Source: Sphingopyxis sp. USTB-05 (GTDB lineage Bacteria > Pseudomonadota > Alphaproteobacteria > Sphingomonadales > Sphingomonadaceae). From it: a DNA stretch of 64,000 nt. The stretch's first letter is position 1, and each line of letters opens with the position of its first letter. The notes below the pieces were generated by a model that had not been told where the DNA came from, ran no database searches, and saw nothing but the letters and a program-made list of their open reading frames with translations. Position numbers and translations under genes: made by a program. Below, in pieces: positions 2,430 through 59,543 of this stretch. The stretch is taken from contig NZ_CP084712.1 of the NCBI RefSeq assembly GCF_023822045.1, forward strand, positions 4,213,001 through 4,277,000, read 5' to 3'.

Positions 2430-2445
2430 TTGATACCGGTGTCAA
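2430..2445 (-). promoter_or_regulatory. LacI-type operator (site A) of receptor 1
   Basis: The 16-bp near-palindrome reads TTGACACCGGTATCAA on the minus strand. It shares TGACACCGGT with sites at 6215, 53849 and 59528. It lies about 47 bp upstream of the receptor start, just after a TAAAAT box that could serve as a -10 element, so a bound repressor would cover the transcription start. The LacI protein at 58369-59424 is the likely ligand (inference). Confidence 0.75.
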
Positions 2446-2451
2446 TTTTAG

Positions 2452-2481
2452 ATGTAATACAACTTGCGAAATGTATTACAA
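2452..2481 (-). promoter_or_regulatory. Paired GntR/FCD-type sites upstream of receptor 1
   Basis: Two near-identical sites, ATGTAATACAA (2452-2462) and ATGTATTACAA (2471-2481), lie 19 bp apart and upstream of the LacI-type operator. Both contain the palindrome TGTAnTACA and fit all but the first base of the known GntR/FCD family form TnGTnnnACnA. The GntR gene at 8453 is the obvious candidate regulator (inference). Confidence 0.65.
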
Positions 2482-2524
2482 CTTTGAGAGGGTAAGTCAA
2501 TCGCCCGCGATGCAAAGCGGGAAT

Positions 2525-2548
2525 GGGCCGATCAGGTTGGATCGGCCC
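2525..2548 (-). terminator. Stem-loop after the GH3-GH105 operon
   Basis: A 9-bp perfect stem (GGGCCGATC / GATCGGCCC) with a 6-base loop lies just downstream of the GH105 stop. No strong T-run follows it, so it may slow or process the transcript rather than act as a classical intrinsic terminator. It separates the hydrolase operon from the receptor promoter in the same direction. Confidence 0.45.
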
Positions 2549-2556
2549 GTTTCATA

Positions 2557-3708
2557 TCAACGCTTTACGCGCCTTTTCGACAGGTCGTACATTGCAGTGC
2601 CGGCGAGCAGATAGGCGCCGCTGCCGTAAAATTGCGTTTCCTTCGCGGACACGCTGTCGGGGCGATCGCCGACCTGCTGGACCCAGCCGAGCATCCCGTC
2701 GGGTTGCACGGCGCGCTGCAATGCATCCCATCCGCGCACGGCCGAAGGCTCGTATGTCGTGCGGTCGAGCAGGCCGTTGTCGACGCCCCATGCAAAGGCA
2801 TAGGTGAAAAAGGCGGTGCCGCTCGATTCGGGCGGTGTGCCGGGGTCGTTGTCGAGCAGCGACGCGGGCCAATAGCCGTCGGCCTTTTGCAGCGTGACGA
2901 GTTTCGCCGCCATGTCCTTGAACAATTTTTCGTAATAGGGACGCTGCGGATCCTTCTTGTCCAGCACCTGCAGCACGCGGACGAGGCCTCCCATCACCCA
3001 GCCGTTGCCGCGACTCCAGAACAGCTTGCGTCCCTTGGCGTCGCGCATGTCGAAAAAGCGGCTGTCGCGGAAATAGAGCTGTTCCGACGGGTCGAAAAGA
3101 TAGTCGGTGGTGGCCTTCCATTCCTCGTGCACGAAATCGGCGTAACGTTTGTCGCCCGTCGCCTTGGCTAGGCGCAGCATCGTCGGCGGTGCCATGAACA
3201 GGGCATCGCACCAGCACCAGCGGTCGGTGCATTTCGACGTTCCCTTGCCCGGCGCGACCGGAATGAATTCGAGGCTGATCGTCGGGCGATTGGCGAGGAC
3301 ATGGTCGAAATAGGCGCGCATCGGGGCGATCGCCTTCTTGCCCTCGCCATTCTGCGCCGCCCACAGCCACGCCTGCCCGATCAACTGATCGTCGGCGTGA
3401 AAGGGCAGGTCGCCCATCTGCCATTTTTCGGCGCGGCCGAGGTCAAGGAGCGGCTTTGCATAAGCCTTGTCGCGGCTTGCGAGTTCGGTGAGTGCGATCC
3501 AGAAGGTAGCCTGTTGCCAGTCGCGTACTTCCTGCACGCTTTTGCGCGCGGCGGGCATCGTCGCCCAGTTGGTCCGGTTTGCGAGCTGCCAATCGGCGAC
3601 GCGGCGCGTCTGCGCCAGGATTGCGGCGGGCCGCGGCATCACAGGCTCGGCGGGCGCCATCGCGGCGGCGGGGGCGGTCATCATCAGGGCAAAGAGGCTC
3701 AGCGACAT
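2557..3708 (-). CDS. GH105/GH88-type unsaturated glucuronyl/galacturonyl hydrolase
   Basis: The 383-residue (alpha/alpha)6-barrel enzyme of the GH105/GH88 group would remove the 4,5-unsaturated uronic acid left at the non-reducing end of lyase products. An N-terminal signal segment (MSLSLFALMMTAPAAAMA) suggests export. Acidic residues typical of the family are seen at D106/D107 (HADDQLIGQAW) and D168 (CDALFMAPP), followed by WSRGNGWVMGG around 231-241, the usual substrate-cleft segment. Its ATG overlaps the end of the GH3 gene by 10 bp, so the two are probably translationally coupled. Its product would feed KduI. GH105 acting on rhamnogalacturonan, ulvan or glucuronan fragments cannot be told apart from sequence. 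Confidence 0.88.
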   Translation of the reverse strand: MSLSLFALMMTAPAAAMAPAEPVMPRPAAILAQTRRVADWQLANRTNWATMPAARKSVQEVRDWQQATFWIALTELASRDKAYAKPLLDLGRAEKWQMGDLPFHADDQLIGQAWLWAAQNGEGKKAIAPMRAYFDHVLANRPTISLEFIPVAPGKGTSKCTDRWCWCDALFMAPPTMLRLAKATGDKRYADFVHEEWKATTDYLFDPSEQLYFRDSRFFDMRDAKGRKLFWSRGNGWVMGGLVRVLQVLDKKDPQRPYYEKLFKDMAAKLVTLQKADGYWPASLLDNDPGTPPESSGTAFFTYAFAWGVDNGLLDRTTYEPSAVRGWDALQRAVQPDGMLGWVQQVGDRPDSVSAKETQFYGSGAYLLAGTAMYDLSKRRVKR

Positions 3709-6176
3709 GGCGTTTCCTTTACGGGCGTGAGGGCGATCGACGAGAGGGTGAGGCGCATCGGCGCGCTCGATGACAGCGCGAAGGGCGCTGTGACATGGTC
3801 GAGCCGCGCGCCGGACAGGCAGGAAAGCGGGATCGTCAGCGTCTGCCAGCCCTGGCCAGCGATCACGGCGAGGCGAGGGCTGATGTCGAGCCGCGCGGTG
3901 CAGCCGGGACCGCAGCGCAGTTCAAGCGTCGCGGGGGCGGTCGGCGCCTGATCGACCTTGAGGTCGATGGACAGCGCGATCGGCCCCACGCCCGACAGGT
4001 CGGCGGCGCGCGCGTTGGCGACGATCAATGTTCCGCGCGCCTTGCCCGACCAGTCGATCTCGCGCGCATCCTCCTGCGCGTCGCGGTCGACCGGGCGCAC
4101 CGCGATCGCGCCATTGTCCGCCGCGCCGCTGATCGCCTGCGGACTGTCGTTGGCGCCGTCGATTTGCAGCAGGCGTGTGCCGACCCCGCGTCCGCGCGCG
4201 AATATCGGCCCGGTGAGCGATTGTTCGACGATGATAGCGGGGTCTACGGAGAGCGCGGCGGCAGCGGCGCGGTCAGCGAGTTTCAGTCCGAAGCCGAAAG
4301 GATAAAGCGGCTTGTAATCCGGATCGCCGACGTTGAGCGGCGCACCCTTGGCGTCGGCGGGCCATGAGAAGGGGAGTTTTCCCTTGAAATCGGCCTTGCC
4401 GAACAGGACGTCGGCGACCCCGTCGCCTTCCGATCCCGGCAGCCATGCCGCGACAAAGGCGTCGGCTGCATTGATGTGGCGATTGACCCACAGCGGGCGG
4501 CCCGAGAGGAAGACGGCGACGACTGGAATACCGTCCGTTTTCAGTCGTTTCATGATGCCGAGATTATCGTGCGTGTCGTCGAAATAGAGGTCGGCGCGGT
4601 CGCCCTGAAATTCGGCATAGGGATCTTCGCCGAAGACGATGATCGCGGCGTCGGGCTTCGCCGTGTAGCGACCGTCGACCGCCAGCTCCGCGGTGCCGCC
4701 ACCGGCGATCATCGCTTCATGCACCCCGGCGAAGATCGAGGTCGCGCCGGGAAAATGTTCGGGACGCGTGCCGGTGCCCTGCCAGGTCAGCGTCCAGCCC
4801 CCTGACTGCTTGGCGACATTGTCGGCGCCGTCGCCCGCGACAAGGATGCGCGCGCTGGACTTGAGCGGGAGCACGCCATCATTCTTCAACAGGACCAGCG
4901 ATTCTTGAACGGCTTGCCGCGCGACCGCGCGGTGATCGGGCGCGCCGAGCAATTCGTAGCGGCCGGCATAGGGCCGCATCGACGGCTTGCCCGCTTCGAA
5001 CAGACCGGCGCGCAGCTTGACGCGCAATATGCGGCGCACTGCGTCGTCGAGCCGCGTCATCGACAGCTTTCCCGACCGCGCGGCGGCGAGCGTCGAGGCA
5101 TAAAGACCCTTCCAGCTTGCGGGCCCCATATACATGTCGAGCCCCGCCGCGATCGATGCGGGACAATCGGTGGGCGAGCAGCCCGGCACTTTCGCATGGC
5201 CGTCCCAGTCGCCGACGACGAGCCCGTCGAACCCCCAGCGCTGCTTGAGCACACGCGTCAGAAGGCTGGCGTTGCCGTGCATCTTGACGCCATTCCATCC
5301 CGAGAAGCTTGCCATCACGCTTTGGACATCGGCCCCCAGCGCGGCGACATAGGCGGGCGCATGAAGGCGGACCAGTTCCGCTTCGTCGATCCGGGCATCG
5401 CCGCGGTCGCGACCGTCCGCCGTGCCGCCGTCGGCAAGGAAATGCTTGGCGGTGGCGATGATATGCGGACCTCTCAGCCAGTCCTTGTCGCCGCGGCGTC
5501 CCTGAATGCCGTGGACGAGCGCGGCGGCGTAGCTCGTCGCGATCGCCGGGTCCTCGCCAAAGCTTTCATAGGTGCGCCCCCACCGGTCGTCGCGTGCGAC
5601 CGCGATCGTGGGCGCGAAAGTCCAGTCGAGCCCGGTGACGCGCATCTCGATCGCCGTTGCCTGCCCGATCTTCTCCATCAGTGCGGGATTTCGCGCCGCG
5701 CCGAGGCCAATATTGTGCGGAAACAGCGTCGCGCCGACGATATTGTTGTGACCATGGACAGCGTCCGACCCCCACATCACCGGGATGCGCGGCAGCGTGC
5801 CGTTCGGGCGCATCGATGCGTCATAATAGGCATCGGCGGCCGCGACCCATGCCGACGCGGGGCCGAATTCGTCGCCGCCGGGCGACGAACTGCCGCCGTT
5901 GAGAATCGATCCGAGGTGATATTGCGCGACATCGTCGGGGGTCGTGCTGCCGATATCGCCCTGAATGATCTGCCCAACCTTCTGTTCGAGCGACATTGCC
6001 GCGATCAACGCGTCGATTCGCGTCTCGATCGCCGGATCGGCGGTGCGTGCGGTTATCGCGGGCCATAGGTCAGGATGCGCCGTGCCCGCCGTGTCGGCGG
6101 CAGCGGATGCCGGAGCCGCGAACAACGCGGCAGCGGACAGGCTGGCCACGGCCAAGGCGCGCCAGGCGCTTCGCAT
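3699..6176 (-). CDS. Glycoside hydrolase family 3 (beta-glucosidase/exo-glycosidase)
   Basis: The 825-residue secreted or periplasmic GH3 enzyme releases terminal beta-linked sugars. The ATG at 6176 gives a clear signal peptide (MRSAWRALAVASLSAAALFAAPASA) and has a GGGAGAGGG ribosome site. An in-frame upstream start at 6230 would overlap the operator and is unlikely. The N-terminal TIM barrel carries IIATAKHFLADG and the nucleophile motif GLVVGDWDGH (Asp about 323). The C-terminal half has the alpha/beta sandwich and a further beta-rich region. It is first in an operon with GH105 and diverges from manD. The linkage specificity is unknown; beta-glucosidase, beta-xylosidase or beta-glucuronidase-like activity are all possible. 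Confidence 0.9.
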   Translation of the reverse strand: MRSAWRALAVASLSAAALFAAPASAAADTAGTAHPDLWPAITARTADPAIETRIDALIAAMSLEQKVGQIIQGDIGSTTPDDVAQYHLGSILNGGSSSPGGDEFGPASAWVAAADAYYDASMRPNGTLPRIPVMWGSDAVHGHNNIVGATLFPHNIGLGAARNPALMEKIGQATAIEMRVTGLDWTFAPTIAVARDDRWGRTYESFGEDPAIATSYAAALVHGIQGRRGDKDWLRGPHIIATAKHFLADGGTADGRDRGDARIDEAELVRLHAPAYVAALGADVQSVMASFSGWNGVKMHGNASLLTRVLKQRWGFDGLVVGDWDGHAKVPGCSPTDCPASIAAGLDMYMGPASWKGLYASTLAAARSGKLSMTRLDDAVRRILRVKLRAGLFEAGKPSMRPYAGRYELLGAPDHRAVARQAVQESLVLLKNDGVLPLKSSARILVAGDGADNVAKQSGGWTLTWQGTGTRPEHFPGATSIFAGVHEAMIAGGGTAELAVDGRYTAKPDAAIIVFGEDPYAEFQGDRADLYFDDTHDNLGIMKRLKTDGIPVVAVFLSGRPLWVNRHINAADAFVAAWLPGSEGDGVADVLFGKADFKGKLPFSWPADAKGAPLNVGDPDYKPLYPFGFGLKLADRAAAAALSVDPAIIVEQSLTGPIFARGRGVGTRLLQIDGANDSPQAISGAADNGAIAVRPVDRDAQEDAREIDWSGKARGTLIVANARAADLSGVGPIALSIDLKVDQAPTAPATLELRCGPGCTARLDISPRLAVIAGQGWQTLTIPLSCLSGARLDHVTAPFALSSSAPMRLTLSSIALTPVKETPCR

Positions 6177-6214
6177 CACTTCACCCTCTCCCTCGACCTG
6201 TCCGGCTTTTCGTC

Positions 6215-6230
6215 TTGACACCGGTGACAT
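6215..6230 (-). promoter_or_regulatory. LacI-type operator (site B) between GH3 and manD
   Basis: TTGACACCGGTGACAT lies between the divergent GH3 and manD genes, nearer GH3. It shares the TGACACCGGT core with the three other sites. It sits over the predicted GH3 transcription start, as expected for a repressor site. Confidence 0.75.
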
Positions 6231-6258
6231 ATGTCTTTCCTTTTGGATCGAGTGTCAA
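6229..6258 (-). promoter_or_regulatory. Probable sigma-70 promoter of GH3-GH105
   Basis: On the minus strand a perfect TTGACA -35 box (6258-6253) is followed after 18 bp by a weak ACATAT -10 (6234-6229). The predicted start falls inside the LacI-type operator at 6215-6230. Confidence 0.45.
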
Positions 6259-6263
6259 TAAGG

Positions 6264-6274
6264 TTGTCACACAA
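6264..6274. promoter_or_regulatory. GntR/FCD-type site between GH3 and manD
   Basis: TTGTCACACAA fits the GntR/FCD consensus TnGTnnnACnA completely. It lies 38 bp before the manD start and upstream of the GH3 promoter, so it could control both directions. Confidence 0.6.
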
Positions 6275-6302
6275 CTAGGCTATTTGGCGGTGAGGGGATA
6301 GA

Positions 6303-7514
6303 ATGCCGAAGATCGTGTCAGCCCGGGTGATTTTGACCTCGCCGGGCCGCAATTTCACGACGCTGAAGATCGAATGCGACGACGGGACGACCGGTGTCGG
6401 TGATGCGACGCTCAACGGCCGCGAGCTCGCGGTCGCGGCCTATCTGTCCGAACATGTCGTCCCCTGCCTCATTGGGCGCGACGCGCACCGGATCGAGGAT
6501 ATCTGGCAATATCTCTACAAGGGTGCCTATTGGCGGCGCGGGCCGGTGACGATGGCGTCGATCGCCGCGGTCGACATGGCGTTGTGGGATATCAAGGGCA
6601 AGGTCGCGGGCCTGCCGGTGTACCAGCTGCTCGGCGGCGCGGCGCGCGAGGGCTGCATGGTCTATGGCCATGCCAACGGAACGACGATCGAGGACACGAT
6701 CGAGGCGGCGCTCGACTATCAGCGCCAGGGTTACAAGGCGATCCGCCTGCAATGCGGCGTGCCCGGAATGGCGTCGACCTATGGCGTAAGCAACGATCGC
6801 TATTTTTACGAGCCCGCGGACAATGACCTGCCGACCGAAAATATCTGGTCGACGGCGAAATATATGCGCGTCGTCCCCGAACTCTTTGCGGCGGCGCGTG
6901 AGGCGCTGGGCTGGGACGTCCATCTGCTCCACGATGTCCATCACCGGCTGACCCCGATCGAAGCGGCACGGCTCGGCAAGGATCTTGAGCCGTACCGTCC
7001 TTTCTGGATCGAGGATGCCACGCCTGCCGAGGATCAGGACGCCTTTCGCCTGATCCGCCAGCATACGACGACGCCGCTCGCGGTGGGCGAGATTTTCTCG
7101 TCGATCTGGGATTGCAAAGCGCTGATCGAAAACCGGCTGATCGACTATATTCGTGCAACGGTGCTTCACGCGGGCGGGATCACGCATATGCGCCAGATCG
7201 CCTCGCTCGCCGACCTTTATCAGGTTCGCACCGGCTGCCACGGCGCGACCGATCTGTCGCCGGTGACAATGGCGGCAGCGCTGCATTTGGGGCTGTCGAT
7301 CCCCAATTTCGGCGTTCAGGAATATATGCGCCATACGACCGAAACCGATGCGGTCTTCCCGCACGCATATAGTTTCGCGGACGGCATGCTCCATCCCGGC
7401 GACGCGCCGGGGCTGGGGGTCGACATCGACGAGGCGCTCGCCGAAACCTTTCCCTACGCTCGCGCCTATTTGCCGGTGAACCGGCTCGAGGACGGCACGA
7501 TGTGGAGCTGGTGA
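6303..7514 (+). CDS. manD: D-mannonate dehydratase (enolase superfamily, ManD/RspA type)
   Basis: The 403-residue enzyme dehydrates D-mannonate to 2-keto-3-deoxy-D-gluconate in D-glucuronate catabolism. Residues matching those known in the Novosphingobium aromaticivorans enzyme are all present with an offset of one: R148 and Y160 for catalysis, D211, E237 and E263 for Mg2+, H213 and H313, and the C-terminal MWSW. This set marks the high-activity ManD class rather than the low-activity RspA paralogues, going by published family knowledge. It starts the rightward operon manD-DUF4861 (1-bp overlap), with gntR 33 bp further on. Its product is the substrate of KdgK, encoded 55 kb away. Glucuronate isomerase and fructuronate reductase are not in the window. 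Confidence 0.95.
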
Positions 7515-8419
7515 TGCGGCCGGCCTTGCTCGCGCTTGCCCTGCTGGTCATGCCGGCCGCGGCGCAGGAGCATACGCCGCTTCGCCCCGCCACAGCGCAG
7601 GAGCAGAAAGCGCGCGCGGCGGTTGTGGTCGCCGATTACCGCTTCGACGACCTGCTCTGGGAAAACGACCGGATCGCGCACCGCATTTATGGCCGCGCGC
7701 TTGAGCGGGCTGAGCCGCCCTCGTCATCGGGGATCGACGCATGGGGAAAGCGCGTCCGCTGGCCGTTCATGGACCGTCAGCTCCGCACGGGCGATCAGCA
7801 CGCCGACCATGGCGAGGGGATCGACTTCTATAATGTCGGCACTGGGCGCGGTATCGGTGGGCTCGGCATCTGGTACGACAACAAGCTTTGGACCTCGCGG
7901 AACTATGTGCGGCCGAATATCTTGCAATCGGGCCCCGAGGTCGCCGACTTTACCGTTGATTATGACCCCTGGCCCGTCGATACGCTGCGCAGCGTGAGCG
8001 AGACGCGGCGCTTCACTTTGCCCGCGGGGACGAATTTTACGCGGATGACCTCGACGATCGCGTCGAGCAGCGAGGCGGAGCTGATCGTCGGGATCGGTAT
8101 TTCGAAACGGCCTATCAATGGAAGCAAGCTGGGCACGATCAGAAAGGATAGCGCGAATGCACGCATGAGCTGGTGGGGCCCTGCCGAGGGCGACGGCGAT
8201 AGCGGAAAGGGCCGAATGGCGGCGGCGGTGATTGTCGACCCGGCCGTTTTTGTAGGCTTTGTCGAGGATGCCGACAATTATCTGGTCCTCGTTCGCGTGC
8301 AGCCGGGAAGGGCCTTTGTCTATTACAGCGGCGCGGCGTGGGATCGCGGGGGTGATTTTGCGAGCGAGGACGCGTGGAATAGCTATGTCGATACGCAGCG
8401 GCCCGATTTCCGGCCCTAG
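7514..8419 (+). CDS. Secreted DUF4861-family protein
   Basis: The 301-residue protein has a signal peptide ([19 protein letters not shown]). Its start codon overlaps the manD stop as TGATG; an in-frame GTG at 7502 is less likely. It resembles the DUF4861 family: DDLLWENDRIAHRIYG, then HADHGEGIDFYNVGTGRG and GGLGIWYDNKLW. DUF4861 proteins occur in polysaccharide-utilisation loci beside GH105 enzymes, but I know of no settled activity. Conserved His/Asp/Glu in the DHGEG segment could be catalytic or bind sugar. Coupling to manD argues for a role in uronic-acid polymer breakdown in the periplasm. I do not assign a reaction. Confidence 0.8.
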   Translation: MRPALLALALLVMPAAAQEHTPLRPATAQEQKARAAVVVADYRFDDLLWENDRIAHRIYGRALERAEPPSSSGIDAWGKRVRWPFMDRQLRTGDQHADHGEGIDFYNVGTGRGIGGLGIWYDNKLWTSRNYVRPNILQSGPEVADFTVDYDPWPVDTLRSVSETRRFTLPAGTNFTRMTSTIASSSEAELIVGIGISKRPINGSKLGTIRKDSANARMSWWGPAEGDGDSGKGRMAAAVIVDPAVFVGFVEDADNYLVLVRVQPGRAFVYYSGAAWDRGGDFASEDAWNSYVDTQRPDFRP

Positions 8420-8452
8420 CCAGTTCTGCGGCGCAATGATAACGCAGCATCC

Positions 8453-9160
8453 ATGGCGGTAACCAAGGCGGCGTCGCTGGCGGACGATCTGGTCCAGCGC
8501 TTCGAGGAACAGATCGAAACGGGCGAAATGCCCGTCGGATCGCGTTTCCCGACCGAAAAAGAAATCACAGAGACGTTCGGCGTCAGCCGCACCGTCGTGC
8601 GCGAAGCCTATTCACGCCTCGCGGCCCGCGGCCTGCTCGTGTCGCGGCGGGGGTCGGGCGCCTATGTTCCCGACGGTGCGCAATATCGCGCGTTTCAGGT
8701 CACCGCCGAGGAAATCGGCGAAATCGAAGATGTTTTGAAGCTGCTGGAAATGCGCATGGGGTTCGAGGCCGAAATGGCCGACCTTGCCGCGCGCCGCCGC
8801 ACCGATGCCGACCTGGCTGCGCTGCGCCGTGCACTCGACGCGATGGAAGAAAGCAGCGATGTCGACGCCTCGGTCGCTGCCGATGCGGCGTTTCATGCGG
8901 CGATCGCGAGCGCTACCGGCAATTCCTATTTCCTGCGCTTCACCCAGTTTCTCGGCGTGCGCCTCGTTCCGTCGCGGCGGCTCTATCTGCAGGGCGATGA
9001 TCCGGTTCAGCATCAACGCTATGCCCATACGATCAACCGGGACCATGAAGCGATCGTCGTCGCCATCGAGGCGGGCGACCCCGTCGCGGCACGTCGCGCA
9101 GCGCGCCGGCACATCGAAAAGTCGATCCTGCGTTATCGGACGCTCAAGGAAAGCCGTTAA
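8453..9160 (+). CDS. GntR-family regulator with FCD domain (UxuR/ExuR-like)
   Basis: The 235-residue transcription regulator has an N-terminal winged helix at about residues 8-75 (FPTEKEITETFGVSRTVVREAYSRLAARGL). An all-helical FCD effector domain follows, with the metal/ligand residues D144, H148, H198 and H220. FadR-group proteins of this type in uronate clusters respond to uronates such as fructuronate. Sites of the family form TnGTnnnACnA occur at receptor 1, GH3/manD and receptor 2, but not in front of this gene. It lies 33 bp after the DUF4861 gene and is probably cotranscribed with manD. The effector and the sign of control are inferred. Confidence 0.88.
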   Translation: MAVTKAASLADDLVQRFEEQIETGEMPVGSRFPTEKEITETFGVSRTVVREAYSRLAARGLLVSRRGSGAYVPDGAQYRAFQVTAEEIGEIEDVLKLLEMRMGFEAEMADLAARRRTDADLAALRRALDAMEESSDVDASVAADAAFHAAIASATGNSYFLRFTQFLGVRLVPSRRLYLQGDDPVQHQRYAHTINRDHEAIVVAIEAGDPVAARRAARRHIEKSILRYRTLKESR

Positions 9161-9258
9161 GTTAACTCGCCTGTGGCTGGCCGAAACGCGCGACACCGGT
9201 GGCCGGGAATGAGGCAGGCAGGAAATTAGGCGGCTAGTGACCTTGATTTCGACTCGTG

Positions 9259-9756
9259 ATGCTCTATTCCAACCCCGTGCAAGGCGACCCTGACAACTAC
9301 ATAAGCCTGCTGTCTGCCGCGCAGATCGAAACGTTGCGGCATGTTTACGAGCACAAAAATTCCAAGCAGATCGCCAGGCTGATGAACGTCTCGCCACACA
9401 CCGTCGATGAGCGGGTGCGGCGGGTGTTAAAGAAACTTAATGTTTCCAACAGAATAGAGGCTGCGCGTATCCTGGCGGTTAACGGTGTCTTCGACCATGT
9501 TACCCCTTATCAGCCTTTGACATATCAATTGATCGACCTTGGCGACGTTTCTCCGTCCGACGATGCGGATCCGGGGCGCAGTTCGTTTCGGCGATTTTTC
9601 GATATAGGTTCGCCATTTCCTACCGCGTCCCAGCCGGCCAACCGGCACGGGTTGATGGAAAGGATTATCTGGCCGATTTTGATCGCATTTGCGACAATCC
9701 TGGCCTTCTCCGCCCTCTATTCGATCCTTGTCGGGCTCGGTCGTGTTCTGACTTGA
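9259..9756 (+). CDS. LuxR-type HTH protein with C-terminal membrane anchor
   Basis: The roughly 165-residue protein has a GerE/LuxR helix-turn-helix near the N-terminus (LSAAQIETLRHVYEHKNSKQIA, then VSPHTVDERVRRVLKKLNVSNRIEAARIL). A single hydrophobic helix near the C-terminus (WPILIAFATILAFSALYSIL) follows. There is no receiver or autoinducer domain. An ATG directly follows a GTG (9256), and either could be the start. A DNA-binding domain tethered to the inner membrane suggests a sensor of membrane state or a protein that is released by proteolysis. It opens a cluster of four small genes, and I recognise no named homologue. Confidence 0.72.
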   Translation: MLYSNPVQGDPDNYISLLSAAQIETLRHVYEHKNSKQIARLMNVSPHTVDERVRRVLKKLNVSNRIEAARILAVNGVFDHVTPYQPLTYQLIDLGDVSPSDDADPGRSSFRRFFDIGSPFPTASQPANRHGLMERIIWPILIAFATILAFSALYSILVGLGRVLT

Positions 9757-9814
9757 TGCTCGAACGAATGCTGCGGGGGGGAACCGGTAGCATTCTTTTT
9801 CAAGGAAAAAGAAG

Positions 9815-10186
9815 ATGCTGAATCAACGAGTTTCTGCAGCGAAGAAGATCGCTTCCGACCTGCACCACGCCGAAGACGCTATCGACGAAGCGATGATCCG
9901 TATCGCCCAGCTTGCCGCGACGCTGCCCACGGCGCGCCGCGAAACCAACATGTCGGCGATCGTCGGGCAGGAAGCGATGGCAAAGGTCGCGCATGCACTG
10001 GCGGCCGCCGGTGAAGTCCGGCAGCTCTTGACCGACGCGCATCTGGCACTGACGGTGACCCAGAAGGAAGTCGGCCTGGGCACGCGCATGTTCGGTGCGG
10101 GCGTCAAGCCGGCTGCCAAGCTGGTCGATGAAGGCAGCAACGATCGCTCGGGCGACGGGGCCACTACGTTCGCGAAGGCCGGTTGA
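9815..10186 (+). CDS. Small helical hypothetical protein
   Basis: The 123-residue protein follows a good ribosome site (AAGGAAAAAGAAG). It is almost entirely predicted alpha-helix with heptad-like Ala/Leu spacing between residues 5 and 90 and a polar glycine-rich tail. There is no signal peptide, cysteine or enzyme motif. It sits between the membrane-anchored HTH gene and a small membrane protein in the same direction, which suggests a shared operon. The function is not recognised; a helical-bundle partner or adaptor is conceivable but unproven. Confidence 0.6.
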   Translation: MLNQRVSAAKKIASDLHHAEDAIDEAMIRIAQLAATLPTARRETNMSAIVGQEAMAKVAHALAAAGEVRQLLTDAHLALTVTQKEVGLGTRMFGAGVKPAAKLVDEGSNDRSGDGATTFAKAG

Positions 10187-52439: not shown

Positions 52440-52445
52440 AAGAGG

Positions 52446-53627
52446 TTACTTGCCCTTTGCCTGGGCGTCGCCGCCCTTGGCCGGTGCGCCGACGCGCTGC
52501 GCGCTGTTCGCCGGGACCGGGCGGATCGGTGCACCCTGCCGCAGATTGCCGATGCCCTGCGTAATCACCCGCTCGCCGGGCTTCAGCCCGTCGGTAATGA
52601 CCCAGTTGGGGCCGGACGTGCGGTCGGCGACGATCTTGCGCCGGGCTGCCTTATTGTCCTTGCCGACCAGATAGACAAAGGCCGACCCGTCGAAATCGCG
52701 CTGCACCGCGGCCTGCGGCAGCAGGATTGCTTTCGGGTTCACCGCCTGATCGAACAGGGCGGTCACGAACATACCGGGCAGCAATATGCCCCGGGGGTTG
52801 GGGAAGCGCGCGCGCAGCGTGACCGTGCCCGTCGCCTCGTTCACCGTGACATCGGAAAACTGAACGGTGCCGGCAAAGGGATAGGCGCTGCCATCCTCCA
52901 TGCGCAGCCGGACCGAGGTGCTGCCCGCGGTCACTCCGCCGCTTTCGATCGCCTGCCGCAACGTCGTAAGCTCCGCGCTCGACTGCTGCATGTCGACATA
53001 CATCGGGTCGGTTTGCTGGATCACCGCGAGCGGGGTCGCCTGGCTGGCGCTCACGAGTCCGCCCGGCGTGACAAGGCTGCGCCCGATCCGGCCGCTGATC
53101 GGCGCGGTAATCGTCGCGAAGCGCAAGTTGATGCGCGCGGTTTCTAGTGCGGCGCCATTCTGGGCGATTGCGGCTCGCGCCATGCGCGCCTGTGCAAGCG
53201 CATCGGTATAATCCTGCTCGGCGACCGCTTGCATCTTTGCGAGCGGTTCGAGCCGCCGTGCGCGTTCCTCGGCGGCCTGCGCGCTGGCGCGCGCGCTCGC
53301 CAGATTGGCGGCGGCCTGATCGACGCCGGCCTGATAGAGGCTCGCGTCGATCTGATAAAGCGGCTGACCCGCGCGGACGAAGCCGCCTTCGGTGAACAGG
53401 CGGTGGCGGATCAGGCCGTTCACCTGCGGACGCACTTCGCTCGTCTCGAACGCGACGGTGCGCGCGCCGAGCGACGAGGTCACGGGCACCGGCTCGACCT
53501 TGACGGTAACATAGCCGACCTCGGGCGCGCCGCGGCCGCCCTTTTCTTCTTCCGCAGTGCAGGCGGCCAACGACAGCGCGATGGCGCACAGCGCTCCGAC
53601 GCGGAGCAGCGGCCTCTTGTCCAGCAT
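52446..53627 (-). CDS. RND periplasmic adaptor (membrane fusion protein)
   Basis: The roughly 393-residue lipoprotein has MLDKRPLLRVGALCAIALSL followed by the lipobox LAACT. Lipoyl, hairpin and beta-barrel domains follow (LIRHRLFTEGGFVRAGQPLY, LRFATITAPISGRIGRSLVT, GILLPGMFVTALFDQAVNPK). A TTG at 53636 is an alternative start with no better ribosome site. It is the first gene of the efflux operon, and no dedicated regulator gene lies beside it. Confidence 0.92.
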   Translation of the reverse strand: MLDKRPLLRVGALCAIALSLAACTAEEEKGGRGAPEVGYVTVKVEPVPVTSSLGARTVAFETSEVRPQVNGLIRHRLFTEGGFVRAGQPLYQIDASLYQAGVDQAAANLASARASAQAAEERARRLEPLAKMQAVAEQDYTDALAQARMARAAIAQNGAALETARINLRFATITAPISGRIGRSLVTPGGLVSASQATPLAVIQQTDPMYVDMQQSSAELTTLRQAIESGGVTAGSTSVRLRMEDGSAYPFAGTVQFSDVTVNEATGTVTLRARFPNPRGILLPGMFVTALFDQAVNPKAILLPQAAVQRDFDGSAFVYLVGKDNKAARRKIVADRTSGPNWVITDGLKPGERVITQGIGNLRQGAPIRPVPANSAQRVGAPAKGGDAQAKGK

Positions 53628-53777
53628 AAAGGTCAATCTCGTTTCGGGTCGCAGCGGAAAGGGAGGTTTTGCGCCTATTCAGCCCATTGCCCCCCTGCTG
53701 GCAAGTGCAATGGGCGCGATGAGACAATTTGCGACAATTTTTCCGTCAGTCAGGCCCGATCGGGACATGAGGCAAAG

Positions 53778-53808
53778 TTGTCATACTACCAGGGTAGTTG
53801 TCATACAA
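53778..53808 (+). promoter_or_regulatory. Paired GntR/FCD-type sites upstream of receptor 2
   Basis: TTGTCATACTA (53778-53788) and TTGTCATACAA (53798-53808) are 20 bp apart and both fit TnGTnnnACnA. Between them is CTACC-AG-GGTAG. The second ends 7 bp before the -35 box. Confidence 0.65.
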
Positions 53809-53815
53809 TTATCGC

Positions 53816-53845
53816 TTGACAGGGGCGTGGTAGTTCCCGCATCAT
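53816..53845 (+). promoter_or_regulatory. Probable sigma-70 promoter of receptor 2
   Basis: A perfect TTGACA (53816-53821) is followed after 18 bp by CATCAT (53840-53845, four of six matches). The start would fall within the LacI-type operator. Confidence 0.5.
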
Positions 53846-53848
53846 TCG

Positions 53849-53863
53849 TGACACCGGTTACCA
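53849..53863 (+). promoter_or_regulatory. LacI-type operator (site C) of receptor 2
   Basis: TGACACCGGTTACCA is identical over all 15 bases to site D at 59529-59543. It lies downstream of the promoter, over the expected transcription start. Confidence 0.78.
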
Positions 53864-53992
53864 GTTCCGGGCAACGAAATAGAAAAGGGGAGGGCGACCG
53901 ATCGCGCCGCGAAGCCGCGGTCGGCAGGCGCCACCTCCGTGGGAAATCATGGGCGAACGGGCATGGTCCGCCGCCGGCGTGGGAGGATGAAA

Positions 53993-56602
53993 ATGGCGAT
54001 TCAGGCAAGGCGGGGTATCCGGACATTGGCGAAATTGGCGGGCGGCGCATCGCTCGCGGTGCTGGCGATGTCGCCGGCACACGCACAGGATGCGGCGCCC
54101 CCGGCGGACGACGACGCGATCGTCGTCACCGGCATCCGTGCCTCGCTCGAACGCGCAGCCGATATCAAGCGCGAAGCCGAGCAGGTGATGGACGTCATCA
54201 CCGCCGAGGATGTCGGCAAGCTTCCTGACGCGAACGTCGCCGAAGCGCTGCAGCGCGTGACCGGCGTCCAGATCACCCGCGTCTTCGGCGAGGGTCAATC
54301 GGTCTCGGTGCGTGGTCTTCAGCAGGTCCGCGTCGAAGTCGACGGCCGCACGCTGCTCGGCTGGTCGGCCCGCCTGTCGCCGCCCGAGAACGACCAGCTC
54401 GGACGCTCGTCGGGCCTCGATTCGGTGCCATCCAGCCTGTTCGGCCGCCTCGAAGTCCGCAAGTCGCCGCTCGCGAGCAACGCCGAGGGTGGGCTGGGCG
54501 GCACCGTGAACCTCGTCACGCCGAAGCCGCTGTCGTTCAAGGAGCCGACGATCTCGGTCCGTGCGCAGGGCGTCTATTCGGAAAACAGCGACAAGTTCGA
54601 ACCCGCGATCACGGGTTTTGCGACGACCAAATTCGCCGACGACCGGATCGGCGTGATGATCGCGGGCGAATATCAGAAGCGCACGTCGAAGACACAGACG
54701 TTCGAGCGTAACAATTTCCTCAACCGCACCTACACCGGCACCGGTGGCGGCGTGGTCCCGACCCCGGTGCTGCTGCAATATGAGGAATTCACGGTCGACC
54801 GTTCGCGCCTCGGCCTCAACGGCGCGATTCAGTTCGAGGTGACGCCGGAATTCACGATTACCGCCGATGCGCTTTATTCGAAGCTCAAGACCGGTCGGCG
54901 GCAGGACTTTTTCGCTTTCCGCCTGCCCACCGGTGCCAACCCCGTCACCAACCGCATCGTCGAGGACGGCGTGGTCGTCGCGGGCAACGCCAATGGCACC
55001 GTCACCACCGCTGGGCAGATCCGCAACGAGCCGACCGAAAGCTTCCTCTATGGCCTCAACGGCAAATATGAGGGCGACAACGGGCTGACGATCGAAGCCG
55101 ACGGCTATTACAGCAAGGGTACGATCGACCAGACGATCCAGATCATCACCTTGCAGGGGACCGCGCTGGTTCCGGGCGCATTCGATTTCCGCGACACCAC
55201 CATCCCGTCGCTGACGCTGACCGGGCCGTTCAACCCGACCAGCTATGCGTCGTACAACCCGGCCACGAACGGGGTACGCAGCAATCGCCTTATCGGCCTG
55301 CTCGACGAATATACGGGGAAGCTCGACGTCAGCTACGAAACCGGCGGCGTCACGATTGCCGCGGGGGTCCGCTATACAGACCTCCATGCGCGCTCGAATG
55401 CCTTCCGCAGCCAAGTCACTCCGACCCGCGCCGAGATCGAGCCCTATCTGAAGCTCGTCGATGCGGGCGATTTCCTGTCGGATATTCCGGGAACCTTCCC
55501 GCGCAGCTTTCTGAGCACCGCGCCGACATTCGACTACGTGTTCAACCGTGCGCAGGCCGCCGAACCCAATCCGAATGCGAACGGCCGCTCGACCCTGCTG
55601 CCCAATCTCCAGCGCGATTATGATTTCAGCGAAAAGACGCTCGCCGGTTACCTGATGGTGTCGGGCGAGGGCGAGATTGCCGGGATCCCGTATAAGGCGA
55701 ACGCCGGCGTGCGCATCGCATCGACGCGGCTGTCGGTCGACAGCTATGTCAATGTCGGCACCGTCAGCACGCTGCGCACCGACAAGAATCGCTATACGAA
55801 CATACTGCCCAGCGCGAATATCGCGTTCAACGTCAGCGACGACTTCCTGATCCGCGTGTCGGGATCGCAGACGATGCAACGCGCGTCGATCGCCGACCTT
55901 GCACCCTCGACCTTCTTCAACGCGACCAACCTTTCGGTCACCGGGGGCAATGTGAATCTGGAGCCGCCGATCTCGACGCAGGCCGATATCAGCTTCGAAT
56001 ATTATACGGGCAAAAGTTCGCTGATCTCGGGCGCGGTCTTCTACAAGGACGTCAAAAATTTCATCGCGAGCTTTGTGACCACCGGCGTCGACACGACGCT
56101 CGACCCGCAGGGGCGTGAACTGACTTTCTCGCGCCCCGAAAATCTGTCGAGCGCGAAGATCAAGGGCTTCGAAATCGGCATCCAGCAGTTCCTCGACTTC
56201 CTGCCCTCGCCGCTCGACGGTTTCGGCGTGATCGCAAACTACACCTATTCGGATTCGGAGGACAGCGCGGGCTTCCCGCTCGTCGCGGTGTCGAAGAACA
56301 GCTACAACCTCGTCGGCCTGTATGAGAAGGGCCCCTTCTCGGCGCGCATCGCGTATAACTACCGCGACGAGGCGGTGTTCGAATTCTCCGAAGGCCGGCC
56401 GAGCTTCGTCGGCTCGCGCTCGCAGCTCGACGCGCAGGTCGGGGTCGACATCACGAAGAATATCGCGCTGTCGCTCCAGGCACAGAATCTGATGCCCAAG
56501 AAATCCGCGACGACCGAGTATAGCAATTTCAACACGACCGCGCTCAACAGCTATGCCCTGTCCGAGCGGCGTTTCTCCGTCGGCGTGCGCGCGAAGTTTT
56601 AA
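53993..56602 (+). CDS. TonB-dependent receptor (complete)
   Basis: The 869-residue outer-membrane receptor has an N-terminal signal (RTLAKLAGGASLAVLAMSPA, then HAQ). The plug carries AIVVTGIRASLERAADIKRE and DVGKLPDANVAEALQRVTGV, and a 22-strand-type barrel ends in a phenylalanine (VGVRAKF). ATG 53993 follows GGGAGG by six bases; an ATG at 53987 is an alternative. This is the sphingomonad/Caulobacter class of receptors used for plant-derived sugars. The beta-helix enzyme follows 83 bp later, suggesting they handle the same glycan. Confidence 0.95.
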   Translation: MAIQARRGIRTLAKLAGGASLAVLAMSPAHAQDAAPPADDDAIVVTGIRASLERAADIKREAEQVMDVITAEDVGKLPDANVAEALQRVTGVQITRVFGEGQSVSVRGLQQVRVEVDGRTLLGWSARLSPPENDQLGRSSGLDSVPSSLFGRLEVRKSPLASNAEGGLGGTVNLVTPKPLSFKEPTISVRAQGVYSENSDKFEPAITGFATTKFADDRIGVMIAGEYQKRTSKTQTFERNNFLNRTYTGTGGGVVPTPVLLQYEEFTVDRSRLGLNGAIQFEVTPEFTITADALYSKLKTGRRQDFFAFRLPTGANPVTNRIVEDGVVVAGNANGTVTTAGQIRNEPTESFLYGLNGKYEGDNGLTIEADGYYSKGTIDQTIQIITLQGTALVPGAFDFRDTTIPSLTLTGPFNPTSYASYNPATNGVRSNRLIGLLDEYTGKLDVSYETGGVTIAAGVRYTDLHARSNAFRSQVTPTRAEIEPYLKLVDAGDFLSDIPGTFPRSFLSTAPTFDYVFNRAQAAEPNPNANGRSTLLPNLQRDYDFSEKTLAGYLMVSGEGEIAGIPYKANAGVRIASTRLSVDSYVNVGTVSTLRTDKNRYTNILPSANIAFNVSDDFLIRVSGSQTMQRASIADLAPSTFFNATNLSVTGGNVNLEPPISTQADISFEYYTGKSSLISGAVFYKDVKNFIASFVTTGVDTTLDPQGRELTFSRPENLSSAKIKGFEIGIQQFLDFLPSPLDGFGVIANYTYSDSEDSAGFPLVAVSKNSYNLVGLYEKGPFSARIAYNYRDEAVFEFSEGRPSFVGSRSQLDAQVGVDITKNIALSLQAQNLMPKKSATTEYSNFNTTALNSYALSERRFSVGVRAKF

Positions 56603-56613
56603 AAGAGGTCCCC

Positions 56614-56658
56614 GGACCGGCGGCCCCGACCTTTTTTCGGGTCGTGCGCCGCCGGTCC
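56614..56658 (+). promoter_or_regulatory. Two-tier stem-loop between receptor 2 and beta-helix gene
   Basis: The outer 11-bp stem GGACCGGCGGC / GCCGCCGGTCC encloses an inner CCCGA / TCGGG stem with a CCTTTTT-rich loop. It ends 27 bp before the next gene. It could attenuate read-through or protect the receptor mRNA end so that the two genes are expressed at different levels. Confidence 0.65.
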
Positions 56659-56685
56659 ACCGGATCACAAGGAGTGTATCGGATT

Positions 56686-58365
56686 ATGGTTTCGGGTGAT
56701 CGGCGCGCGCGCCTTGTTTCGGTTCTGGCGCTCGGCGCGGCGCTCACTCTACCAGTTCAGGCGCAACCGGCGAAATTGCCCAAAATCCTGTCGGACCCTG
56801 CGACGGCGGCGGCAAACCCGCTGCCCGACTTCAGCTACGCCGGTTATGGCTTCGGGGTGGCGCCGATCCCCGCCGATGCGGGCACGATCATCGACGTGAC
56901 CGATCATGGCGCGATCCCCGACGATGGACTCGACGATAGCAAGGCGGTGCTGCGCGCGCTCGCCGCAGCAAATGCGGTGAAGGGCAAGGTGACGCTGCGT
57001 TTCCCGAAGGGGCGCATACAGATCACCGAAGTGTTGCGCATCACGCGCAGCGACATCACCCTGGACGGTGCGGGCAATGGCGCGGGCGGCAGCGAACTCT
57101 GGTTCCCGCGGCCGCTGAAGCTGATCGACAAAAGCCACGATTATGACGAGCTGCGCGAATATCTGGTGCGCGAGAAGAAGCAGCAGGTCGAGCCCGAGCA
57201 TAATATCGACTATCTGTTCACCGAATATACCTGGGCGGGCGGGATGATCTTTGTCGCGCCGGCGGGCGGCCGGCCGGTCTCTTATGACGGGACAAAGGAT
57301 GTCCGCGACCCGGTGCTCGCCAACGGTGTATCGGGCAAGCAATTCGCGCGAACGCTGACGGTAAACGATGCATCGAAGCTTAAGGTCGGCGATGTCGTGC
57401 AGCTACAATGGTTCTCGGTTGACGGACCCAAAAGCCAGATATTGAAATCGCTCTATGGCGATACCGACCTGCCGATCGGCTCGCATCATTGGACCTTCCC
57501 GAACCGGCCGGTGGTCGCGCAGGCGACGCGCGTCGCGGCGGTGCGCGGCAAGACGGTCACGCTCGGCGATCCATTGCTTCACGATGTCCGTGCGGACCAG
57601 CCCGCGGTCGTCGCCGACTGGACGCATCTTTCGAATGTCGGCATCCAGAATCTGCGGCTGCAATTCCCCGAGGCGCCAGCGTTCGGCCATCATCTCGAGC
57701 AGGGCTATAACGGCATCTATATGACCGGCGTGTTCGACGGCTGGGTCAAAAAGCTGACGATCGACCGCGCGGACAGCGGCATCCTGACCGACAATGCCGC
57801 GAGCCTGACGATCGCCGACATCACGACGACGGGCGACCGCCGCGCGCATTATTCGGTGCATGTCGGCGCCGTGCACAATGTGCTGGTCAAGGATCTGAAG
57901 GTCGAGAATCCGGTCGTTCACCCGGTGAGCATCAACACGCGTTCGACGCGTTCGGTCTTCCTGCGTTCGGTCGTCGACAAGGAGGCGATCATCGATCAGC
58001 ACAGCGGATCGAACCATCAGAATCTGTTCGACGCGATCGAGATGCATATCGATCCGAAGCAGGGCAAGGACGGCTGGCATTACCAGCTGTGGGTCGGCGG
58101 CGGCGCACCCTATTGGAAGCCGGGGCATGGGCTCTACAACACGCTGTGGAATGCAAAGCTGGTGGTGCCCGAAAGCGTGCCCGCCGATGCCACGGTTGCG
58201 ATCACGAGCGGCCTCGAAGGTCCGGGCGAGCGGATCGTCGGGCTGCATGCGAACCGCAATATCACGGTCAGCTATGATCCCGCGCCCTATATCGAGGGGA
58301 CGGGGCAGGCGGTCGATGCGGCGCCGTCGCTTTACGAATATCAGCTCGCGCGCCGGCGGCGCTGA
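56686..58365 (+). CDS. Secreted right-handed beta-helix protein (pectate-lyase-3-like), candidate polysaccharide lyase
   Basis: The 559-residue protein has a signal peptide (RARLVSVLALGAALTLPVQA, then QPAK). After it comes IIDVTDHGAIPDDGLDDSKA, the entry to the pectate-lyase-3/GH28-like parallel beta-helix fold. Repeating short beta turns follow (ITLDGAGNGAGGSELWF, LTIADITTTGDRRAHYSVHV, VLVKDLKVENPVVHPVSINT). An unusual charged insertion at about residues 145-175 (DELREYLVREKKQQVEPEHN) lies before YLFTEYTWAGGMIFVAP. I do not recognise a CAZy family. Context (receptor, GH105, kdu genes) suggests an endo-lyase supplying unsaturated uronates, which is inference. Confidence 0.75.
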   Translation: MVSGDRRARLVSVLALGAALTLPVQAQPAKLPKILSDPATAAANPLPDFSYAGYGFGVAPIPADAGTIIDVTDHGAIPDDGLDDSKAVLRALAAANAVKGKVTLRFPKGRIQITEVLRITRSDITLDGAGNGAGGSELWFPRPLKLIDKSHDYDELREYLVREKKQQVEPEHNIDYLFTEYTWAGGMIFVAPAGGRPVSYDGTKDVRDPVLANGVSGKQFARTLTVNDASKLKVGDVVQLQWFSVDGPKSQILKSLYGDTDLPIGSHHWTFPNRPVVAQATRVAAVRGKTVTLGDPLLHDVRADQPAVVADWTHLSNVGIQNLRLQFPEAPAFGHHLEQGYNGIYMTGVFDGWVKKLTIDRADSGILTDNAASLTIADITTTGDRRAHYSVHVGAVHNVLVKDLKVENPVVHPVSINTRSTRSVFLRSVVDKEAIIDQHSGSNHQNLFDAIEMHIDPKQGKDGWHYQLWVGGGAPYWKPGHGLYNTLWNAKLVVPESVPADATVAITSGLEGPGERIVGLHANRNITVSYDPAPYIEGTGQAVDAAPSLYEYQLARRRR

Positions 58366-58368
58366 GGA

Positions 58369-59424
58369 TTAGCGCCCCGGCGGCGGCGCGACCGACTGCC
58401 GCTCGACGAAGGTCGAGGCGAGGACGTTGCTCTCATCGTCGCCGCCCTTGGTGCCCGGACTGAGGAAGTCGGGGACGAGCGTCTGCGCGGCGCGGATGCC
58501 CATCTCGCGGATCGGCCAGCGCACCGTGCTGAGCGCGGGCCAGATATGCGTCGCCGTCGGACTGTCGTCGAAGCCGATAATGGACAATTCGCCGGGAACC
58601 TTGATTCCCTTTCCGTGCGCAACGCTCATCACGCCCGCCGCCATCTCGTCGTTCGAGCAGAAGACCGCGGTCGGCGGCGCGGGCAGCGAAAGCAACGCCT
58701 CACCGGCCTCGATCCCGGCGGTATAGCGGTAGTTGCCCGGCGCATAAAGTTCGGCGGGCAGGTCGAGCCCTGCCTCGGCCAGCGCCTCGCGGAAACCCTC
58801 TTCGCGCTCGGCCGCCGAACGGAAGCCGACGGGGCCGCGCACGAAACCGATCCGGCGATGGCCGAGAGCGACCAGCCCGCGCACCGCCTCGGCAACCACC
58901 TCGCGGTCGTTCGACGAGATACAATGCTTCGCATCGTCGATCCGCGCCGACCCGATGCGCACGTAACGCACGCCAAGATCCTCGCAGAGCGCGGCAAGAT
59001 CGTCATTCTCAGAAATCGGCGGCAGCAACATCGCGCCGATCGGGCGCTGTTTTTCCAGGAAAGTGCGGACATCGTCGAGCATCTTGTCCGACCCGCGATC
59101 GACCGGACGGACGAGCAGCGCAAGATCGCTGTCCTTGATCGCGTCGAGCACGCCGCGCTGAAAATTGAGCACGGTCTGCGCATTCGGATTGTCGTGCAGC
59201 AGCGCGATCAGGAAATTCCGGCGAAAGGCGAGCGCGCGTGCCTGCGGATTGGGGACGAAGCCAAGCTGCTCGATCGCCTTTTCGACAGCCGCGCGCGTCT
59301 TGTCGGTCAGGAATTCGGAGCGGTTGATCACCCGGCTCACGGTCTTTTTCGAAACCCCTGCAAGCGCTGCGACGTCGTTGATCGTCGGTTGCTTGCTCCC
59401 CGGCCCCTTATTCTGTGCCGCCAT
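58369..59424 (-). CDS. LacI-family repressor of the uronate regulon
   Basis: The 351-residue protein has an N-terminal LacI HTH and hinge helix (TINDVAALAGVSKKTVSRVI, then GFVPNPQARALAF). A periplasmic-binding-protein-like sensor domain follows (ALGHRRIGFVRGPVGFRSAA, PTAVFCSNDEMAAGVMSVAH, LSIIGFDDSP). The start MAAQNKGPGSKQPTIND at 59424 is preceded by AGGGG; longer in-frame extensions cross the operator and are rejected. It diverges from kduI, with site D between them, implying self-control. Sites with the same TGACACCGGT core at 2430, 6215 and 53849 define its probable regulon. Confidence 0.92.
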   Translation of the reverse strand: MAAQNKGPGSKQPTINDVAALAGVSKKTVSRVINRSEFLTDKTRAAVEKAIEQLGFVPNPQARALAFRRNFLIALLHDNPNAQTVLNFQRGVLDAIKDSDLALLVRPVDRGSDKMLDDVRTFLEKQRPIGAMLLPPISENDDLAALCEDLGVRYVRIGSARIDDAKHCISSNDREVVAEAVRGLVALGHRRIGFVRGPVGFRSAAEREEGFREALAEAGLDLPAELYAPGNYRYTAGIEAGEALLSLPAPPTAVFCSNDEMAAGVMSVAHGKGIKVPGELSIIGFDDSPTATHIWPALSTVRWPIREMGIRAAQTLVPDFLSPGTKGGDDESNVLASTFVERQSVAPPPGR

Positions 59425-59527
59425 ATTCTGTCTTTCCCCTGCAAGCCTCTGGCCCGGCTCGCGCTTTCCCTGCAGATGGGCGCTCGAAAGCGTAAAATCA
59501 ACCGCCCGGCGGGGGTGCCAACACCTC

Positions 59528-59543
59528 TTGACACCGGTTACCA
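59528..59543. promoter_or_regulatory. LacI-type operator (site D) between lacI and kduI
   Basis: TTGACACCGGTTACCA lies 52 bp before kduI and 104 bp before the lacI start. The first six bases could also be the kduI -35 box, so repression by occlusion is likely. Confidence 0.78.

Follow-up and report, generated by a model that had tools for sequence, protein, structure and literature searches.

Results

Uronate genes and predicted LacI-type operators in the window

The DNA analysed here (the window) is a 64,000-nucleotide stretch of the Sphingopyxis sp. USTB-05 chromosome (positions 4213001-4277000 of 4,679,489 bp) that carries two separate clusters of uronate genes with predicted operators of a LacI-family regulator, lacI. 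A preliminary description had named four such operators, and the exact 10-mer TGACACCGGT that they were said to share is indeed present at all four places: at 2435-2444 on the minus strand and from 6216, 53849 and 59529 on the plus strand. The expected number in the window is 0.06, and none of 100 shuffles reached four. Operator A (2430-2445, minus strand, TTGATACCGGTGTCAA) lies about 46-61 nt upstream of the start of a TonB-dependent receptor gene and is conserved at the receptor promoter in relatives; operator B (6215-6230, TTGACACCGGTGACAT) is located between the GH3 and manD genes; operator C (53848-53863, plus strand, GTGACACCGGTTACCA) directly follows a −10 element; and operator D (59528-59543, TTGACACCGGTTACCA) separates the divergent lacI and kduI. 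All four thus occupy promoters of uronate genes, as described before, except that A precedes the receptor gene (start at 2383) and not the GH88 gene. The sites had also been presented as palindromes of 15-16 bp. This is true of A and B, where 14 and 12 of the 16 positions, respectively, match their own reverse complement, making both good palindromes, and less so of C (8) and D (10), which are half-degenerate. The reported identity of C and D over 15 bases was reproduced.

In the left cluster, the first receptor gene (TBDR1, hereafter receptor 1; 2-2383, minus strand, start picked by eye) continues past the window edge, where it adjoins two Alginate_lyase-family genes (PF05426) labelled PL5 (locus L050). 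Also on the minus strand are a GH88-family gene of the unsaturated glucuronyl hydrolase type (2557-3708) and a GH3 glycoside hydrolase gene (3699-6179, start picked by eye). Behind site B, the plus strand encodes the D-mannonate dehydratase ManD (6303-7514; NF043051, 728.8 bits against a cut-off of 550), a DUF4861 protein (7502-8419; BT_3233-like, below cut-off) and, in the same operon, a FadR-subfamily regulator with GntR and FCD domains (gntR; 8453-9160), the proposed reader of a second motif, GTTGTNNNACAAC. In the right cluster, the second receptor gene (TBDR2, receptor 2; 53987-56602, plus strand, start picked by eye among ATGs) is followed by a gene for an exported protein (56644-58365, plus strand), by lacI (58369-59424, minus strand), the proposed reader of TGACACCGGTNNC, and by plus-strand genes for the 5-dehydro-4-deoxy-D-glucuronate isomerase KduI (59595-60437), the 2-dehydro-3-deoxy-D-gluconate 5-dehydrogenase KduD (60437-61192) and a PfkB-family sugar kinase (61239-62252). 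The kinase falls below NCBIfam cut-offs and is likely a 2-keto-3-deoxygluconate (KDG) kinase.

To the right of the window (L051, 4277001-4296000), three further predicted operators, E, F and G, are found at 4279594, 4279742 and 4285867. E and F lie between a PelZ-like pectate lyase gene and a third TonB receptor gene, which is followed by a GH43 gene, while G lies between uxaA and an operon encoding an FAH-like protein, a major facilitator superfamily (MFS) transporter, UxaC and UxuB. Here, uxaA labels a GD_AH-family (altronate/galactarate) dehydratase gene and uxuB a fructuronate reductase-like gene. Judged by sequence, these genes together make up two predicted routes, one by which galacturonate and glucuronate enter through an isomerase (uxaC, uxuB-like, uxaA, manD) and one for unsaturated uronates (kduI, kduD, kinase).

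Two proteins of the right-hand side are less readily assigned. The exported protein 56644-58365 has pectate-lyase-like and DUF4955 matches, both weak, and none in the PDB at E ≤ 0.001. Its predicted fold, based on an alignment of 20 homologues out of 120 listed, has a mean pLDDT (predicted local distance difference test) of 42. The protein is possibly a new polysaccharide lyase. Its family is mostly named hypothetical, and its gene is paired with receptor 2 in all 26 gntR-carrying genomes that have either. The FAH-like protein (L051 8907-9698) has no Pfam match and a weak likeness to 2-oxo-hexenedioate decarboxylase; its gene is found near lacI in most mapped relatives, also beyond the genus.

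Distribution of the sites over the chromosome

The whole chromosome was covered by searches with exact patterns, each paired with a reversed control. The 10-mer TGACACCGGT occurs 11 times (once in the control), and seven of these copies fall within 70 kb, at 4215435-4285876. Extending it by the conserved C of the right half (TGACACCGGTNNC) leaves seven matches, all in the same 70 kb, and none in the control. Since all seven exact TGACACCGGTNNC matches are confined to the uronate clusters, the motif is not common and scattered without relation to uronate genes, which is what would have spoken against a single regulon. When TGAYACCGGT and TGACACMGGT are searched for between 4196001 and 4296000 (100 kb), the two patterns together return the same seven places and nothing more. 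Three of the seven are outside the window, so the regulon does not stop at 59543. A 16-mer search allowing up to three mismatches gave 32 matches genome-wide against 23 in the control; those with 0-2 mismatches are D, C and E, and the remainder, mostly noise, includes A, B and F. Among 245 operators of the form TGACACCGGTNNC collected from relatives, in which the first ten positions were fixed by the search, position 13 is C in 99% and the right half is degenerate.

The four other 10-mers were set aside. Those at 1835316 and 3910928 lie inside open reading frames of 404 and 374 aa, whereas those at 4559370 and 4585331, in or at the start of open reading frames, are weak, reading TTGACCGGTGTCA with a different right half (TGACACCGGTCAA). 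The last of them (L287) forms a shorter-spaced palindrome, TTGACCGGTGTCAA, before a gene that by eye resembles one for a universal stress protein. A LacI-like 10-mer was also seen in some relatives upstream of a gene that by eye looks tonB-like: TGACACCGGTATC in L271-L277 and TGACACCGGTAAC in L280 and L281 (genomes G015, G053, G005, G013, G032, G037, G050, G035 and G018). The present genome does not show this arrangement. Such a site could place the energy transducer and the receptors under joint control.

The LacI-family regulator and its sites

The lacI product has a LacI helix-turn-helix domain (PF00356, 65.6 bits) and a periplasmic-binding-like domain (PF13377, 124.7 bits). It had been described as the product of a single lacI gene beside site D; it is the sole lacI among the sites, but the chromosome holds eight LacI-domain genes. 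Its closest named relatives (97-83% identity) are nearly all from Sphingopyxis. In 73 of the 80 best relatives (of 222; 97-56% identity) the exact 10-mer occurs within 300 nt upstream of lacI, that is, in the regulator's own promoter, and autoregulation through predicted operator D is expected. The site also has the even palindrome with central CG of local LacI-family sugar regulons.

We next consider the genus, represented by 60 genomes including the present one, with lacI counted at 57% identity or more. The 49 genomes with lacI contain on average 6.7 copies of TGACACCGGTNNC (range 3-12) and the 11 genomes without it 1.4 (range 0-3; Mann-Whitney p = 2e-7, uncorrected for kinship, with four of the 11 less than 90% complete). 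One genome (G016) has relatives of uxaC-uxuB and uxaA (74, 57 and 54% identity) at a distance of 1.8 Mb from lacI, and a LacI site, TTGACACCGGTTACC, separates uxaC-uxuB from uxaA there. In three genomes without gntR (G028, G029, G047), lacI has one in-frame stop each and the LacI sites are retained.

A candidate GntR/FadR-type operator at the same promoters

Regulators of the FadR subfamily bind operators of the type TNGTNNNACNA. The sequence TTGTNNNACAA fits this type, is conserved in relatives and occurs in the window just twice, at B and C (0.16 expected; 1 of 100 shuffles reached two), making it a candidate operator, a layer that the preliminary description overlooked. We scored GntR-type sites by their eight arm positions within 150 nt of LacI sites. 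Predicted operators with all eight lie at B (6264-6274, TTGTCACACAA) and at C (53798-53808, plus strand, TTGTCATACAA). Beside A there are two minus-strand sites with seven of eight, one at 2452-2463 (GTTGTATTACAT) and a second 19 nt farther, at 2471-2482 (GTTGTAATACAT). In random windows of the same loci (n = 4,260), eight of eight was reached in 1.4% and at least seven in 6.3%. The variant TTGTNATACAW occurs three times in the genome (A, C and G) versus six in the reversed control.

The gntR product combines a GntR winged helix-turn-helix domain (PF00392, 66.7 bits) with an FCD domain (PF07729, 96.3 bits), and its best PDB sequence match is the pyruvate dehydrogenase complex repressor 9jpj. 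Orthologues (at least 75% identity) are present in 28 of the 60 genomes, all 28 of which have lacI; 11 more matches are paralogues of 44-46%. The LacI site at manD could be mapped in 23 of these 28 genomes, and all 23 have eight of eight at B; for receptor 2 the corresponding numbers are 26 of 28 mapped and 25 of 26 with eight of eight at C. Next to A, at least seven of eight were found in 21 of the 22 gntR-carrying genomes that have this site. Eight of eight was never found at D (0 of 25), and at E/F in 1 of 20, namely the present genome (TTGTCCAACAA at F). By sequence, then, a predicted GntR-type operator overlays three or four of the seven LacI-site promoters.

At the receptor and GH3/manD promoters the elements follow a fixed order: GntR site, −35, −10, LacI site. 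A search for a GntR site, TTGACA 2-11 nt further on and a LacI core returned 45 promoters in 25 genomes (25 of receptor 2 and 20 of GH3/GH88), with 5-8 nt from the GntR site to TTGACA and 22-26 nt from TTGACA to the LacI site. At C, a promoter scan places a sigma-70-like promoter (TTGACA-18-CATCAT; 53816-53845, plus strand) between the two sites; at B, in the GH3 direction, TTGACA at 6253-6258 (minus strand) occupies the same position, with the −10 recognized by eye. We also asked whether the two operators are equally phased on the helix and discarded the idea: by hand arithmetic, the centre distances at B and C are about 6 bp apart, and the spacing between GntR site and −35 ranges over 5-8 nt.

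Outside the genus, three outgroup loci (L097, L101, L102) have a relative of receptor 2 (55-59%) with a LacI site, and their best GntR-site scores are 5, 7 and 6 of 8. A search of 149 genomes of the family at E ≤ 1e-75 found gntR in three, the present genome and two of one other genus (63%). The latter two each carry two eight-of-eight sites in 34 kb. The first immediately precedes gntR and faces DUF4861, and the second directly follows kduI; TGAYACCGGT does not occur in the 34 kb searched. Each motif thus appears to follow its own regulator, the numbers outside the genus being small.

Separate and contiguous arrangements

Distances were measured between match starts. The spacing between lacI and gntR is 45.4-55.0 kb in 17 genomes, including the present one, and 16.6-33.9 kb in five (G025, G031, G044, G055, G059); in six genomes the two genes are on separate contigs. 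G031 and G044 have the whole mapped set in a single run, whereas G059 and G055 lack some genes and G025 most of the module. The run reads uxuB, uxaC, MFS, FAH; lacI, uxaA, GH43, receptor 3; pelZ and so on, then kinase, kduD, kduI; the lyase-like gene and receptor 2; two PL5 genes, receptor 1, GH88, GH3; and finally manD, DUF4861, gntR. A set that is contiguous in some relatives and 45-55 kb apart in 17 genomes indicates that both clusters belong to a single system, which occurs in two arrangements.

Fifteen genomes without gntR have lacI and flhA on one contig. In seven of these (G003, G028, G029, G033, G045, G050, G058) the two are separated by 40.8-43.7 kb and acrA adjoins the lacI cluster; the remaining eight have distances of 23.5-373 kb. 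The 17 split genomes show 41.9-50.0 kb, with 14 of them at 45-47 kb. Their usual excess, about 4.5 kb, is near the combined size of receptor 2 and the lyase-like gene, and in G005, which lacks this pair, the distance is 41.9 kb. The pair was mapped in 26 of the 28 genomes with gntR (absent from G005 and G025) and, in the stretches fetched, in none of 21 without it, including nine with acrA beside the lacI cluster. This distribution means that pieces separated by 44 kb in the present genome are present or missing together. When mapped on the tree of lacI, with outgroup rows given another label, the absence of gntR requires 13 changes, at least 10 of them forced by well-supported branches.

Discussion

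Taken together, these results support well the idea of one LacI regulon, split in the present genome, although its original outline was incomplete in that the regulon extends past the window and includes a GntR-type layer. We consider it very probable, from sequence and comparative data, that a single local repressor of the LacI family uses the four sites as its operators, with the GntR regulator acting as a second lock on one module. In this model, LacI (58369-59424) would repress the use of uronic-acid polymers through seven operators in 70 kb. On the left it would control receptor 1 and the divergent GH3-GH88 and manD-gntR; on the right, receptor 2 with the lyase-like gene, lacI itself and kduI-kduD-kinase, the pectate lyase and receptor 3-GH43 (two sites), and uxaA and MFS-uxaC-uxuB. 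GntR (8453-9160) would read GTTGTNNNACAAC at receptor 1, GH3/manD and receptor 2 and, in some species, at uxaA/MFS.

A GntR site abutting the −35 and a LacI site immediately after the −10 suggest two locks. At receptor 2 and GH3, LacI would cover the transcription start, and GntR would sit right next to the −35. The two proteins most probably act as repressors from which pathway products relieve the promoter. LacI would then serve as the lock shared by all uronate genes, released by an intermediate common to all uronates, for which a KDG-like compound is our guess. GntR would be the second lock on the module (its own receptors, the PL5-type lyases, GH88, GH3 and manD), released by a module-specific product, the effector again being a guess. 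We tentatively go further, at somewhat less than even confidence, and propose that such a two-lock promoter, with LacI on the start site and a FadR-type repressor by the −35, opens the receptors and hydrolases of the module only on the common intermediate plus a module-specific product, and that this patchy glucuronate/alginate-type module has been gained or lost piecewise on both sides of a block of about 42 kb of unrelated genes, both operators being kept at its pieces.

How the two clusters came to be apart may also be told differently without affecting this mechanism. They may have been separate at first, with an incoming glucuronate/alginate-type module adopting the operators of the resident lacI, in which case the gap would not be a split of one old locus. 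This history has a substantial chance of being correct, if somewhat below even. Three observations speak for it: among the 15 genomes without gntR that have lacI and flhA on one contig, seven show a distance of 40.8-43.7 kb and have acrA next to the lacI cluster; genomes without gntR are scattered over the lacI tree; and two genomes of another genus have gntR and, in the 34 kb searched, no LacI site. It sits less well with the lacI-gntR distances of 16.6-33.9 kb in five genomes, two of which (G031, G044) have the full set in one run, and with the outgroup loci L097, L101 and L102, which already possess a relative of receptor 2 and a LacI site.

Two other alternatives concern the regulators themselves. 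With eight LacI-domain genes in the genome, and paralogues of 37-42% identity common in the genus, another family member might read the sites instead of the 58369 protein. We regard this as very improbable: the site lies ahead of lacI of the 58369 type in 73 of 80 relatives, and genomes that lack this lacI but have a 38-39% paralogue contain few copies of TGACACCGGTNNC (none in G040, two in G041, one in G014 and three in G017). It is also rather unlikely, if less so, that only the LacI layer is regulatory and that matches to GTTGTNNNACAAC represent promoter-flanking sequence, such as an UP-like element or a site of another regulator. It would be consistent with that reading that each of the 45 promoters has its GntR-type site 5-8 nt away from the −35 (2-11 allowed) and that GTTGTNNNACAW does not exceed its control genome-wide. 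On the other hand, the arms are complete in all 23 cases at B and in 25 of 26 at C while the middle three bases vary; the eight-of-eight match is missing at the promoter of the receptor 2 relative in three outgroup genomes without detected gntR; and in another genus the GntR site occurs with gntR, no LacI site being found in the 34 kb searched.

The proposal of a LacI regulon with a GntR second lock also has to face a number of observations that do not favor it. Sites C and D are weak palindromes. Seven of the 80 lacI relatives have no exact site upstream, although in four of them (L111, L115, L123, L131) the 10-mer lies 1.0-1.1 kb past the match start, just downstream of lacI. Among the 28 genomes with gntR, five (G018, G025, G035, G043, G057) gave no LacI site at manD, and two (G005, G025), both of which lack receptor 2, gave none there, in the form used for the search. 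Presence/absence tests are confounded, as the genomes are related and the genes behind the sites are gained and lost along with their regulators. For GntR, the outgroup locus L101 has a seven-of-eight match, and the genomes of L097, L101 and L102, in which no gntR match was found at E ≤ 1e-20, are metagenome-assembled and of unstated completeness. At E/F, at least seven of eight occur in 9 of 20 genomes with gntR and 3 of 9 without, so that weak matches there do not track gntR; at G they occur in just 12 of 28 with gntR (1 of 18 without). The looser GTTGTNNNACAW has 11 matches at 10 places in the genome, four of them in the cluster, against 32 in the reversed control. The pattern alone is therefore unspecific, and the case is carried by position and conservation. 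Finally, GntR may instead be an activator at B and C, although its spacing from the −35, which varies by 3 nt, would rather favor steric repression.

Several components of the proposed regulon have counterparts on record: local LacI uronate regulons, one LacI-family regulator over two loci (PMC5507952), dual regulators (PMC3750489) and GntR-family alginate repressors (PMC7874173, PMC8286568). LacI-family regulators mostly bind DNA without ligand, have operators that are even palindromes with a central CG, and more than three-fourths of the local ones have a site in their own promoter, according to the general account in PMC4052901. The ExuR, KdgR, UxaR and UxuR groups described there share with the Sphingopyxis system a local LacI regulon, an even CG-centred palindrome, an autoregulatory site and uronate targets. 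The sections of PMC4052901 on these groups name no Sphingomonad group; the likeness is one of description, and the three TonB receptors among the targets set the Sphingopyxis regulon apart from that account. UxuR2 of Algoriphagus marincola HL-49 is likewise reported to be one LacI-family regulator of two separate galacturonate/glucuronate loci, but it comes from another phylum, is associated with a TRAP transporter, and its description mentions no second operator in the parts relevant here (PMC5507952). In Thermotoga, XylR and KdgR are two sugar regulators, one of them for glucuronate, predicted on the same xylan loci; that pair is described as ROK plus IclR (PMC3750489), whereas in Sphingopyxis it would be LacI plus GntR, and their promoters have a fixed layout. 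AusR of Zobellia, likened here by description, is a GntR-family repressor of alginate genes (PMC7874173, PMC8286568), and AlgO, encoded within its cluster, regulates how the sphingomonad Sphingomonas sp. A1 imports and degrades alginate (PMC8778563). For both, a LacI partner goes unmentioned in the corresponding passages (PMC7874173, PMC8286568, PMC8778563). In the open-licence literature, a scope that leaves out RegPrecise, supplements and most subscription journals, we found no description of the Sphingopyxis regulon.

The conserved two-operator promoter is the most interesting part of this regulon. Overall, the analysis provides a nearly complete, testable list of predicted operators for the use of uronic-acid polymers in Sphingopyxis and related genera, and it ties three TonB receptors of unassigned substrate to uronates. 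The genomes with LacI only, with LacI and GntR, and with GntR only form a natural series in which one may follow how a second regulator joins an existing regulon, and how a regulon persists with its genes far apart.

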